Below are positions 8,170-10,893 of a stretch of DNA of 47,347 nt, piece by piece. Location: the NCBI GenBank assembly GCA_030698375.1, contig JAUYLL010000084.1:1-47347 (forward strand), in the 5' to 3' direction. A program made the translations under genes and the position numbers. The notes beneath the pieces were generated by a model. The model was not told where the DNA came from. It did no database searches and saw nothing but the letters and a program-made list of their open reading frames with translations. Numbering within the stretch: the stretch's first letter is position 1; each line of letters opens with the position of its first letter. The stretch comes from Nocardioides sp. (lineage in GTDB: Bacteria; Actinomycetota; Actinomycetes; Propionibacteriales; Nocardioidaceae).

Positions 8170-8993
8170 CACCGCCGCAGCTCCGTCGCCTCGTCGGCCG
8201 CGCGCCGGGCTGCGTCGCGCAGCGCACCTCGCTCCGGTCCGGCGCCCAGGATCTCGCGCGAGGAGCTGGGCAGCACGTGGCGGGCAGCGTCGCCGAAGAC
8301 CCGGCGTACGTCGGCCATGGTGGCGCCCTGGGCCCCCACGCCGGGTGCCAGGATCGGACCGTTCACGTCGAGCCGCTCCCCCGCCGGGTCGACGGTGGCT
8401 CCGACGACGACGCCGACCGAGCCCGACGGCGTGGCACCGATGTTGCGGGCGGCGACCTCGGCCAGCACCGTCCCCGCGACCGTCCGCCCCTCGGCGGTCC
8501 GGGCGCGTTGTACCTGGGCGCCCTCGGGGTTCGAGGTGAGCGCGAGCACGAAGACCCCGGCGTCGTGGGTCTCGGCCGTGGTCAGGAACGGCTCGAGGCT
8601 CCCGAAGCCGAGGTACGGCGACACGGTGACCGCGTCGGCCGCCAGCGGTGAGCGCGGGTCGAGGTAGGCGTCGGCGTACGCCTGGGACGTGGACCCGATG
8701 TCGCCCCGCTTGACGTCGAGGAGGACCAGTGCGCCGGCCTGGCGACAGGTGGTCACCACCCGCTCCAGCACCGCGACCCCGGCCGCGCCGTGGCGCTCGA
8801 AGAACGCCGACTGGGGCTTGACCAGGGCCACGACCTCGCCGAGCACCTCGGCAGCCGTCAGCGCGAACCGCTCGAGCCCCTCCGGGGTGTCGGGGAGCCC
8901 CCAGGCCTCGAGCAGCGCGGGGTGCGGGTCGATGCCGGCGCAGAGCGGGCCGCGGGCGGCGGTGCGGTCGTGCAGGCGGGATCCGAACGTCAT
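8169..8993 (-). CDS. pyrF: Orotidine 5'-phosphate decarboxylase (subfamily 2)
   Basis: Last step of UMP synthesis, decarboxylating OMP. The 274-residue length fits the long actinobacterial subfamily. The catalytic Lys/Asp signature is LDVKRGDIGSTSQAYADAYL. CAGIDPHPALLEAWG at the N-terminus and VNGPILAPGVGAQGATMADV (phosphate loop) are also present. The ATG overlaps the stop of the pyrDB-like gene as ATGA. It is the last recognisable enzyme gene of the pyr operon. Confidence 0.96.
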   Translation of the reverse strand: MTFGSRLHDRTAARGPLCAGIDPHPALLEAWGLPDTPEGLERFALTAAEVLGEVVALVKPQSAFFERHGAAGVAVLERVVTTCRQAGALVLLDVKRGDIGSTSQAYADAYLDPRSPLAADAVTVSPYLGFGSLEPFLTTAETHDAGVFVLALTSNPEGAQVQRARTAEGRTVAGTVLAEVAARNIGATPSGSVGVVVGATVDPAGERLDVNGPILAPGVGAQGATMADVRRVFGDAARHVLPSSSREILGAGPERGALRDAARRAADEATELRR

Positions 8994-10027
8994 CGGCGTA
9001 CTCCTTCAGGACCTTCGGTCGGGGTGGCGAGGGTGCGGGCGGGGGCGTGCTCGGGCCGGTGGGCGTAGCCGACCAGTCCGGCGACGGCGGTGGCGCCGTG
9101 ACCCGACACCAGATCGGCGAGGCCGGCGAGGACACGGGCGGGGGTCGTCGGATCTGCGAACACGGAGGAACCCACCTGGACGGCGGTGGCTCCGGCGGCG
9201 ATCATCGCCAGCGCGTCGGCCGCGCTGGCGACTCCCCCGCAGCCGACCACCGGGAGCGTGGGCACGGCGGCGTGCGCCTCCCAGACGCAGCGCAGCGCGA
9301 TCGGGTGGAGCGCCGGTCCGCTGAGCCCGGCATGGGGCACGTCGCGCGCCCCGGAGCCCAGGGCCGGCCGCAGCGTCGTGGGGTCGAGCGCGAGGGCCTC
9401 GGCGGCGTCGGCCACCGTGACCCCGTCGGCCCCGGCGTCGGCGCAGGCGCGGGCGAACTCCCCCACCCGCCCCGGCAGCGGCGCCAGCTTGGCGAGCAGC
9501 AGCGCGCCCGAGGGGAGCTCACGGCGCACGGTCGCGAGGACCTTGGCGGCGTGGTACGGCTCGTCGGAGCGGTGCAGTCCCAGCGCTGCCGCACCGGGCG
9601 GGCCGAGCCTGACCTCCACCCCGGTGACGCCGGGCGCCGCGGCGATGTGGCGGGCGAGCTCGGCGTACTCCCCCAGGGATGCGGCGGCGACCGAGACGAT
9701 GGTCCGCACGCTCCGGGCGGCCAGCCACGGCAGCTCGGTGGCGAGGAAGCCGCTCAGGCCAGGCCCGGCCAGCCCTGTCGCGTGGACGAAGCCGGAGGGC
9801 GACTCCACGACCCGGCGTCCGGGGGGTCCGGTCACCGGGTGCAACGTCACGGTGGGGGTCACGTACGCCCCGAGGGCAGGGAGGTCGAGCAGTTGCTCGA
9901 GGTCGCGCCCCAGGCGCACACACCCGGCCGCGGTGAGCACGGGGTTGGTCAGCCGCGTCCCGCCGAGCGTCACGGCCAGGTCGACCGGGGGCCCGGGCGA
10001 GGCGGAGGAGGGAGCGGACGCGCTCAT
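8990..10027 (-). CDS. PyrD class 1B-like FMN-barrel protein lacking catalytic residues
   Basis: A 345-residue TIM-barrel protein that aligns along its length with the catalytic subunit of NAD-type dihydroorotate dehydrogenase. The FMN-phosphate loop is kept (VVGCGGVASAADALAM, VQVGSSVFADP), as is one barrel Lys (K180). Where family members read NISCPN, this protein reads RLGPPG (140-145), so the catalytic Cys and both flanking Asn are gone. The Lys of the KATT-type motif is Pro58, the Asn of the LNAIGL motif is His82, and the Asn of the TMIN motif is Asp207. Orotate chemistry therefore looks impossible by the known mechanism. It overlaps the pyrK-like gene by ATGA and pyrF by ATGA. An automatic label of dihydroorotate dehydrogenase would probably be wrong; the true role is unknown. 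Alignment is from memory of the Lactococcus enzyme. Confidence 0.82.
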   Translation of the reverse strand: MSASAPSSASPGPPVDLAVTLGGTRLTNPVLTAAGCVRLGRDLEQLLDLPALGAYVTPTVTLHPVTGPPGRRVVESPSGFVHATGLAGPGLSGFLATELPWLAARSVRTIVSVAAASLGEYAELARHIAAAPGVTGVEVRLGPPGAAALGLHRSDEPYHAAKVLATVRRELPSGALLLAKLAPLPGRVGEFARACADAGADGVTVADAAEALALDPTTLRPALGSGARDVPHAGLSGPALHPIALRCVWEAHAAVPTLPVVGCGGVASAADALAMIAAGATAVQVGSSVFADPTTPARVLAGLADLVSGHGATAVAGLVGYAHRPEHAPARTLATPTEGPEGVRR

Positions 10028-10893
10028 GCCGGGGCCCCCCAGGCGTCCCAGCGGACCCGATCCCCGCGGAGCACGGGTCCGTCGACACAGGCCCGGACCG
10101 ACCGGGCCACGGCGTCCTCCCCGACGACAGGCACCGCACAGCCCAGGCAGTGACCGGTCGCGCACGGCATCGGCCCGGTGAGCGCGACCTGGCTCCACGC
10201 CCCCCGCTGCTCGGCGGCAGCCGCCGCGGCGTGCAGCACGGCGGTGGGGCCGGCCGCGTAGACCACGTCGGGCGCCTGGGCCTCGAGCAGACCGGGAAGC
10301 AGGTCGGGCAGACGTCCACGGAGCCCGACCGAGCCGTCCTCGGTGACGACCTGGACGGTGCGGGCCGCCCGACGCGCCTCGAGGGCGCCGTAGAGCCCCG
10401 CCTCGTCGGCCGCGGCGAGCACCACGTGGACCGTGCAGCCCCGCTCCTTGAGCCGCTCGGCGAGCGACTGCAGGGCGGCCACCCCCTCGCTGTGCCCGAC
10501 GAGGGTGCAGGCCACCGCTTCCCTGGGCAGGGCGAACGGACGCCCCAGCGGCCCGGTGAGCGGCACCGTCGCTCCGGGCGCGAGCGTGGTCAGCCAGCGG
10601 GTGCCGGCGCCGCGCTCGGCCACGAGCAGCTCGACGGTGCCGCCATAGGCACCGGCAGGGCGGGCGCGCAGGACCCAGAAGGCCCGCCGCGCCAGCCGCG
10701 CGGAGTCCGGGCCGCCCACCGAGACGGCGACGAAGGTGCCCGGACGGTGGCGCTCGGCCACGCCAGGTGCCACCAGGGTGAGGTGGTGGTAGCGGCCGAC
10801 CTTCTTGCGGCTGAGGACCTCGGCACGGACGTGCACCGTGCGCGAGGACGGCGCCGCGCTCGCCCCGCCGGGCGCGGGGCGGCCCGAGGTCAC
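10024..10893 (-). CDS. PyrK-like iron-sulfur flavoprotein subunit, diverged
   Basis: A 289-residue homologue of the electron-transfer subunit of class 1B dihydroorotate dehydrogenase. The C-terminal 2Fe-2S ligands are intact: C244, C249 and C252 in PCATGHCLGC, and C269 in RACVDGP (CX4CX2CX16C). The TEDGSVGLRG segment is also kept. The FAD-binding motif normally RRPxSI reads RRAFWVL, and the glycine-rich nucleotide loop normally GGGIGVPPL reads GHSEGVAAL, so FAD and NAD binding are questionable. It starts at GTG in a GTGA overlap with pyrD, and its stop overlaps the pyrDB-like ATG, so the two are clearly co-expressed partners. Function is unknown; an Fe-S electron carrier or structural partner for the diverged barrel is the simplest guess. 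Confidence 0.82.
   Translation of the reverse strand: MTSGRPAPGGASAAPSSRTVHVRAEVLSRKKVGRYHHLTLVAPGVAERHRPGTFVAVSVGGPDSARLARRAFWVLRARPAGAYGGTVELLVAERGAGTRWLTTLAPGATVPLTGPLGRPFALPREAVACTLVGHSEGVAALQSLAERLKERGCTVHVVLAAADEAGLYGALEARRAARTVQVVTEDGSVGLRGRLPDLLPGLLEAQAPDVVYAAGPTAVLHAAAAAAEQRGAWSQVALTGPMPCATGHCLGCAVPVVGEDAVARSVRACVDGPVLRGDRVRWDAWGAPA

Follow-up and report, generated by a model that had tools for sequence, protein, structure and literature searches.

Why should a genome that encodes an intact dihydroorotate dehydrogenase (DHODH) also keep, in the same operon, the two subunits of a second one whose catalytic residues are gone? The question was raised by contig JAUYLL010000084.1 of Nocardioides sp. 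(Nocardioidaceae; assembly GCA_030698375.1), of which positions 1 to 47,347 of the forward strand, a stretch of 47,347 nucleotides, are called the window here. Two adjacent genes on its minus strand encode relatives of PyrK and PyrDB, the subunits of class 1B DHODH, which uses nicotinamide adenine dinucleotide (NAD), and a class 2 (quinone-type) pyrD lies directly upstream. A pair was called class A if a class 2 pyrD lay just upstream of it, and class B if not. We found that the window pair is a maintained pseudoenzyme, which means an enzyme homologue without catalytic residues that is kept by selection. Its features are as follows, where FMN is flavin mononucleotide and FAD is flavin adenine dinucleotide.

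Positions 10024..10893, minus strand: pyrK-like gene (289 amino acids), with the four [2Fe-2S] cysteines kept and the NAD site and the flavin-N5 serine altered.
Positions 8990..10027, minus strand: pyrDB-like gene (DHODH barrel, 345 amino acids), with the catalytic cysteine gone, Lys48 replaced by Pro58, and the FMN-phosphate loops and Lys180 kept.
Positions 9593..9610, minus strand: RLGPPG, which replaces NISCPN in the alignment (barrel residues 140-145; Pro143 in place of the catalytic cysteine).
Positions 9854..9856, minus strand: Pro58, which replaces the active-site lysine of the barrel (class A barrels: Arg in 115/119, Pro in 4/119).
Positions 10138..10164, minus strand: CATGHCLGC, the first three [2Fe-2S] cysteine ligands (244, 249, 252) of the PyrK-like protein, retained in 118/118 class A proteins.
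Positions 10087..10089, minus strand: Cys269, the fourth [2Fe-2S] ligand of the PyrK-like protein, retained in 117/118 class A proteins.
Positions 10672..10689, minus strand: RRAFWV (residues 69-74), the FAD motif of the PyrK-like protein with serine changed to Trp73 (Trp in 107/118 class A, Ser in 49/49 class B).
Positions 10471..10497, minus strand: GHSEGVAAL (residues 133-141), which replaces the nucleotide loop GGGYGSAPL of the PyrK-like protein in the alignment.

The origin of the pair was clear. The barrel scored 137 bits against PF01180 (cut-off 27) and the PyrK-like protein 38.7 bits against PF10418 (cut-off 23.9), so the original prediction, made from the sequence alone, was right to name them homologues of the class 1B subunits, and its coordinates, overlaps and motifs were also recovered (Pro58, His82, RLGPPG at 140-145, Asp207, RRAFWV, GHSEGVAAL and Cys244/249/252/269). 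By sequence, the best solved relatives of the barrel were the DHODB chains 5ksw_A and 5ue9_A, followed by L. lactis 1ep1_A, and those of the PyrK-like protein were 4ylf_A (an "electron transfer subunit homolog", by title an NfnI entry) and then L. lactis PyrK, 1ep3_B. The fold of PyrDB and PyrK was retained in both subunits. The equivalog model NF005574 (cut-off 269 bits), scored on three class A barrels including the window's and on one class B locus, gave 232.6 bits for the window barrel, below the cut-off, 199.2 and 212.8 for the class A barrels L046 and L071, and 355.8 for the class B barrel L058.

What has been lost and what has been kept follow the two ends of the enzyme. With RLGPPG where class 1B has NISCPN, the window barrel has no catalytic cysteine, and its active-site lysine and substrate asparagines are gone too. 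Cys-to-Ala and Lys-to-Ala mutants of a class 1A DHODH fail to complement, according to the accessible part of PMC10395836, which we counted for a loss of the chemistry. The FMN-phosphate loops and the lysine at FMN-N1 are present (G237, G264, G265, G286, S287 and K180); these glycines and Lys180 are found in 116-118 of the 119 class A barrels, and Thr or Ser at 287 in 109. In the PyrK-like protein the four cluster cysteines are in place and the marks of the NAD site are gone. The predicted loss of the NAD site stood for the nucleotide loop (GHSEG for the GGG loop; second glycine in 1/118 class A and 49/49 class B proteins) and had overlooked the nicotinamide side, where CGPM has become AGPT (residues 214-217) and the cysteine remains in 3/118 class A and 49/49 class B proteins. 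The FAD motif was described as changed, which is true of the serine at N5 and incomplete otherwise, since both arginines are kept; the RR and GxG(T/S) marks are mostly present across class A. Leu184 had been listed as replacing a conserved asparagine, and this did not survive the comparison, in which class B barrels have Asp in 49/51 and Asn in 2/51 at that position.

Close relatives carry the same changes. The three nearest relatives found (85-86% identity) share RLGPPG, P58, H82 and D207 with the window barrel, and the marks P58, H82, R140, P143, P144, G145 and D207 are fixed in 6/6 aligned sequences of the window's clade, so the residue changes go beyond chance. A one-genome oddity or a sequencing error was ruled out, with a changed pair present in 126 genomes.

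Then, we compared class A with class B. The first loci collected from the order already separated into 8 of class A, in which NISCPN had been lost in varied ways, and 19 of class B with all motifs kept. Removal of near-duplicates reduced class A loci from 167 to 123 and class B loci from 63 to 55. The alignment was made without five contig-cut class A loci (L044, L083, L090, L221 and L225), without L035 (taken as a duplicate of L047) and L231 (frameshifts in all genes), and without class B L121, whose start was not found and which reads NLSCPN with the cysteine kept. The upstream pyrD was seen for 118 of the 119 aligned class A barrels, and the other, L182, was classed by sequence, with its contig ending before pyrD. 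NISCPN was read in 51/51 class B barrels versus 0/119 of class A. No class A barrel has cysteine at the base position, where 12/119 have serine. Lys48 is kept in 50/51 class B barrels (one gap) and in 0/119 of class A. The named class A loci are mostly Nocardioides and other Nocardioidaceae. Among 120 listed database relatives of the window barrel, 17 have NISCPN and 103 do not. One database protein, P0005, has Arg48 with the catalytic cysteine still there (NLSCPN), and is likely an early step of the disarming, to judge from these two residues.

Class A formed a single clade with support of 1.0 in the tree of the joined proteins (118 rows) and 0.66 in the tree of the barrel; the tree of the PyrK-like protein alone did not recover it as one clade. 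Within class A the changes form a ladder: L010 has a near-canonical PyrK with a barrel motif that is partly deleted, later branches have changed FAD and nucleotide loops, and the window's clade branches beside one large clade. In the barrels of this main clade (108 barrels, 107 PyrK-like proteins), Lys48 is replaced by Arg58 in 108/108, and the motif ends in Asp145 in 97/108 (N-x-x-x-P-D). In the partner, Trp73 is found in 103/107, Glu134 (GGG to GEG) in 99/107 and alanine for the cysteine of CGPM in 94/107, and the cluster loop reads CGTGLC[HQ]GC, with Thr246 in 107/107, Gly251 in 102/107 and the four cysteines in 107, 107, 107 and 106 of 107. The positions on the substrate side vary (82, His 55 and Asn 44 of 108; 143, Ala 56, Val 20, Ser 12 and Pro 9; 207, Asn 63 and Gly 26). 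Mean entropy in the main clade was 0.33 bits at 9 FMN positions of our own choice and 0.72 at the 11 contacts listed in PMC5881531, compared with 1.31 at 8 substrate positions and 1.11 over the whole barrel. Judged from these alignments, the flavin site is more conserved than the substrate site in the main clade.

The genes are also intact. All 126 class A loci were inspected, and both genes were intact in 116, broken in 5 (L130, L202, L227, L231 and L232) and cut by a contig end in 5; the frequent pseudogenes that the original prediction had named as a sign of decay were thus not seen. The start of the barrel gene overlaps the stop of its partner by 4 bp in 117/126 class A loci and 17/51 class B loci, where an overlap of 1 bp is commoner (28/51); these counts show only that a start codon exists there, because the start codon picked was always the one closest to the 4-bp overlap. 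The order pyrD, pyrK-like, pyrDB-like, pyrF was found in 119/120 class A loci that show both flanks. In L232 (G212, a genome reported as 99% complete) both genes of the pair are broken and their fragments lie in one 555-codon frame; this is perhaps a pair caught in the middle of its loss.

The ratio of nonsynonymous to synonymous substitution rates (dN/dS) was calculated by the Nei-Gojobori method, which ignores codon bias, for 28 disjoint pairs of close relatives with PyrK-like proteins more than 80% identical, and the comparison was made within one operon. The median was 0.168 for the barrel gene, 0.125 for the pyrK-like gene, 0.177 for pyrD and 0.129 for pyrF. There was no difference between the barrel gene and pyrD (Wilcoxon p 0.55), and the pyrK-like gene was lower than pyrD (p 0.0005), which means that both genes are held as firmly in the relatives as the live genes beside them. 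Two further pairs with a broken copy, excluded from the 28-pair test, gave 0.62 and 0.42 for the barrel gene, and these are a weak control because frameshifted ends inflate dN/dS. Purifying selection thus keeps the pair in relatives, and random decay was ruled out by dN/dS, the intact frames and the new signature. The view of the original prediction that the pair was repurposed rather than decaying is therefore borne out. Where it asked whether RLGPPG and the cysteines are conserved in orthologues, the cysteines are kept throughout class A and RLGPPG only in the window's clade; as to random substitution at the changed sites, the main clade has a fixed signature and the early-branching lineages differ at the catalytic-motif sites.

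The pair sits in a complete operon for uridine monophosphate (UMP) synthesis on the minus strand of the window, in the order pyrR, pyrB, pyrC, carA, carB, class 2 pyrD, pyrK-like, pyrDB-like and pyrF. Neighbours overlap by 4 bp, and carA and carB by 1 base. The other genes of the operon are listed below.

Positions 10890..11966, minus strand: pyrD, class 2 (quinone-type) DHODH of 358 amino acids with the catalytic NVSSPNT intact (NF003648, TIGR01036).
Positions 8169..8993, minus strand: pyrF, orotidine monophosphate decarboxylase (TIGR02127, 274 bits).
Positions 11963..15307, minus strand: carB, assigned by eye from its translation, with the start set at MPKRTDIK.
Positions 15307..16488, minus strand: carA, assigned by eye from its translation, with the start set at MTTTTTGAP.
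Positions 16485..17786, minus strand: pyrC (NF006836, 677.6 bits).
Positions 17783..18718, minus strand: pyrB (NF002032, 381 bits).
Positions 18715..19308, minus strand: pyrR (NF003547, 282.6 bits).

The class 2 PyrD of the window scored 446.6 bits against NF003648 (cut-off 433) and also passed TIGR01036, so the intact quinone-type enzyme described directly upstream is indeed there. The draft genome (87% complete) encodes two PF01180 proteins, namely this PyrD and the barrel of the pair. NVSSPNT was intact in 108/108 class 2 PyrD proteins from loci with the pair.

To see how the pair and the class 2 enzyme are distributed, the PyrDB-like, PyrK-like and class 2 PyrD proteins were used as queries against 341 genomes of the family (PyrD threshold, E up to 1e-40). 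The PyrDB-like protein was found in 150 genomes and the PyrK-like protein in the same 150, neither gene being found alone. This agrees with the interdependence reported for active DHODB, in which PyrDB seems to be needed for incorporation of the cluster into PyrK and is destabilised without PyrK, as far as the available text of PMC8097209 goes. Class 2 PyrD was found in 309 genomes. The pair occurred in 24 genomes where no class 2 PyrD was found; the pair sequence was read in 21 of these, all with NISCPN, the other three being G107, G108 and G140. A class A pair was present in 126 genomes, and class 2 PyrD was found in 125 of them; in the remaining one, G293, the contig ends just upstream of the pyrK-like gene, so that every genome shown to be without class 2 PyrD is also without a class A pair. 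A further 184 genomes had class 2 PyrD but no pair, and 7 had neither.

Forty of the 184, hand-picked and mostly from the large genus, were read at the locus. No remnant of the pair above 60 bits was found there apart from the PyrD gene itself, and pyrF lay within 100 bp of pyrD in 23, was separated from it by another gene of 0.9-1.3 kb in 15 and was ambiguous in 2. In 11 of the 40 (L236-L238, L240-L243, L247, L254, L257 and L272) the slot holds another flavin-barrel gene, by eye an FMN-dependent alpha-hydroxy-acid oxidase of the lactate monooxygenase type, and in 4 (L239, L249, L250 and L251) a gene on the opposite strand, by eye an M48-type membrane metallopeptidase. An order-wide search of 293 genomes, which again included many from the family, also turned up PyrK relatives beyond it. 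In a related family (G450, G426, G464, G478 and others), PyrK-like stretches lie inside open frames of about 900-1000 codons, perhaps fusions to another redox domain.

What, then, does the pair do? It likely has a new job, because it is intact in most relatives that carry it and stands beside the replacement enzyme despite the loss of its catalytic residues. Our favoured reading, held tentatively and with a little less than even confidence, is that a class 1B DHODH homologue without catalytic and NAD-site residues, under purifying selection in relatives beside class 2 PyrD, is a partner of UMP synthesis that senses redox state or relays electrons through its flavin and [2Fe-2S] centres. Class 2 PyrD would have taken over dihydroorotate oxidation, and the old complex would retain its internal redox chain (FMN, [2Fe-2S] and perhaps FAD). 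Both substrate ends would be closed, with no base at FMN and Trp at the flavin N5; in the main clade the NAD loop of the PyrK-like protein also has Glu. The complex might then be oxidised or reduced by the redox state of the cell, by oxygen or by iron supply, and its reduced or cluster-loaded form might attach to some partner within the UMP pathway, whose activity would change as a result. Among the functions offered by the original prediction, the Fe-S/flavin sensor fits best; an electron relay specific to PyrD received no clear support from covariation or diagnostic PyrD residues. A stricter form is possible, though we think it on the unlikely side: a closed redox circuit with both substrate doors shut, in which FMN, [2Fe-2S] and perhaps FAD are kept, would act as a dedicated sensor of redox state or iron and would control how fast UMP is made, by way of class 2 PyrD or some other operon enzyme. 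To our knowledge, the DHODH family has no earlier example of a regulatory pseudoenzyme, so such a sensor would be its first.

Several results weigh against the sensing or relay reading. Nothing in the analysis points to a specific partner or signal, and the cofactor content of the pair, FAD above all, is a prediction. The FMN contacts that match Asn195 and Cys249 of T. brucei vary. The window copy departs from the marks of the main clade (Pro58, Arg140, Gly145 and His134), and because several of these marks are missing, FMN binding is less sure for it; the dN/dS pairs also all come from outside its clade, with the window not among them. The pair is dispensable: of the 309 genomes in which class 2 PyrD was found, 184 are without the pair, and a PyrD tree of 147 (107 with the pair, 40 of the 184 without) requires at least 13 changes between presence and absence. 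In mirror-tree comparisons, made without the broken copies, the distances of the two subunits had the best correlation of six gene pairs (r 0.84), but covariation with class 2 PyrD was not consistently above that with PyrF: the partial correlation of the PyrK-like protein was 0.49 with PyrD given PyrF versus 0.45 with PyrF given PyrD, and that of the barrel was 0.40 with PyrD versus 0.56 with PyrF. No PyrD residue diagnostic of the pair was found between PyrD proteins with (108) and without (40) it; the best, residue 210, is Ala in 75/108 with the pair and His in 28/40 without, kinship being uncorrected.

Instead of sensing, the pair could be a structural pseudoenzyme, a scaffold or chaperone that lends stability to one of the UMP-pathway enzymes while its cofactors merely hold the fold. 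The fold and the operon position are kept, the cofactor residues may serve folding, given the mutual dependence of PyrDB and PyrK in active DHODB (in the available part of PMC8097209), and there is a precedent in the same pathway, where aspartate transcarbamoylase (ATCase) of P. aeruginosa is active only with the inactive pDHO chain, according to the accessible text of PMC7053772. However, several of the newly fixed residues lie within redox motifs (Trp73, Glu134 and the Cys loop), and genomes that have lost the pair still hold class 2 pyrD and pyrF, so we consider a scaffold rather unlikely.

Less probable again is a new enzyme, in which the barrel took another substrate and the pair is still redox-active with other donors and acceptors. 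Arg58, Lys180 and Asp145 are fixed or nearly so in the main clade and most FMN contacts are kept, as such an enzyme might require, but the would-be substrate contacts at 82, 143 and 207 vary, unlike those for one fixed substrate, and the NAD motifs are gone. Slow decay would mean that the pair became redundant when class 2 PyrD arrived and that its frames stay open only through high G+C and translational coupling to pyrF. The differing catalytic motif of early-branching lineages, the 5/126 broken copies, the 184 class 2 PyrD genomes without the pair and substrate positions freer than the barrel mean are all in line with it, but dN/dS in relatives equals that of pyrD and pyrF, the new signature is fixed and 116/126 pairs are intact; moreover, coupling alone puts no selection on the protein sequence, and in 23/40 loci without the pair pyrF follows no more than 100 bp after pyrD, which makes this very unlikely. 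That the pair is still a DHODH with an unusual active site is hardly credible: the fold and most FMN contacts are kept and 12/119 barrels have Ser at the base position, as class 2 and 1S enzymes do (accessible part of PMC10395836), but Cys and Lys48 are both at 0/119, an enzyme with an intact motif stands alongside, and the class 1A alanine mutants of that same report are dead in complementation.

The sensing or relay reading aside, the locus offers a natural experiment in how one enzyme replaces another: in many lineages with class 2 PyrD next to it, the old complex is neither active nor rotting, and has a new conserved signature instead. All stages are found in the family (the 1B type by itself, class 2 next to the dead pair, and class 2 by itself), so both the sequence of changes and the new function are open to direct test in culturable Nocardioides. 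If the sensor reading were true, the pair would be a route by which the oxygen or iron state reaches pyrimidine synthesis, and the ladder of intermediates would record the transition from an enzyme to a sensor, a regulatory pseudoenzyme in the DHODH family. Database names for the copies are doubtful: P0082, P0105 and others are called "tRNA-dihydrouridine synthase" (Nocardioides speluncae) or "dihydroorotate dehydrogenase (NAD+) catalytic subunit". Metabolic models of the group may be wrong because databases name some copies dihydroorotate dehydrogenase.

Compared with class 1B DHODH (PyrDB-PyrK of L. lactis, 1EP1-1EP3), the pair shares both folds, the gene pairing, the four cluster cysteines, the FMN-phosphate loops and Lys180, but has no catalytic Cys, Lys48, substrate Asn or NAD motifs, and three class A barrels fall below the NF005574 cut-off. 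Class 2 PyrD belongs to PF01180 as well and is its operon neighbour; unlike the pair it has an intact NVSSPNT and no partner subunit, and the dead barrel belongs to the 1B type. The NfnI small subunit/SudB (5JCA, 4YLF) belongs to a bifurcating NAD(H)-using enzyme, in the available portion of PMC8097209, whereas the PyrK-like protein has no NAD motifs and has a PyrDB-like partner. Among the literature matches listed, with most subscription journals outside their scope, no paper on a dead DHODH pair was found. The pseudo-dihydroorotase of P. aeruginosa ATCase is likewise an inactive relative of a pyrimidine enzyme that has stayed in that enzyme's pathway, but, as far as the accessible text of PMC7053772 goes, it concerns another enzyme and step, and is a dihydroorotase homologue and not a two-subunit redox complex. 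In trypanosomatids, prozyme and a dead deoxyhypusine synthase paralog are kept as activators according to the available parts of PMC6221367 and PMC3663545; those are paralogues of the live enzyme, whereas in this operon the live PyrD belongs to one DHODH class and the dead pair to another. Pseudoenzymes kept in a pathway are thus already known, and what appears to be new here is a two-subunit redox complex as the pseudoenzyme.

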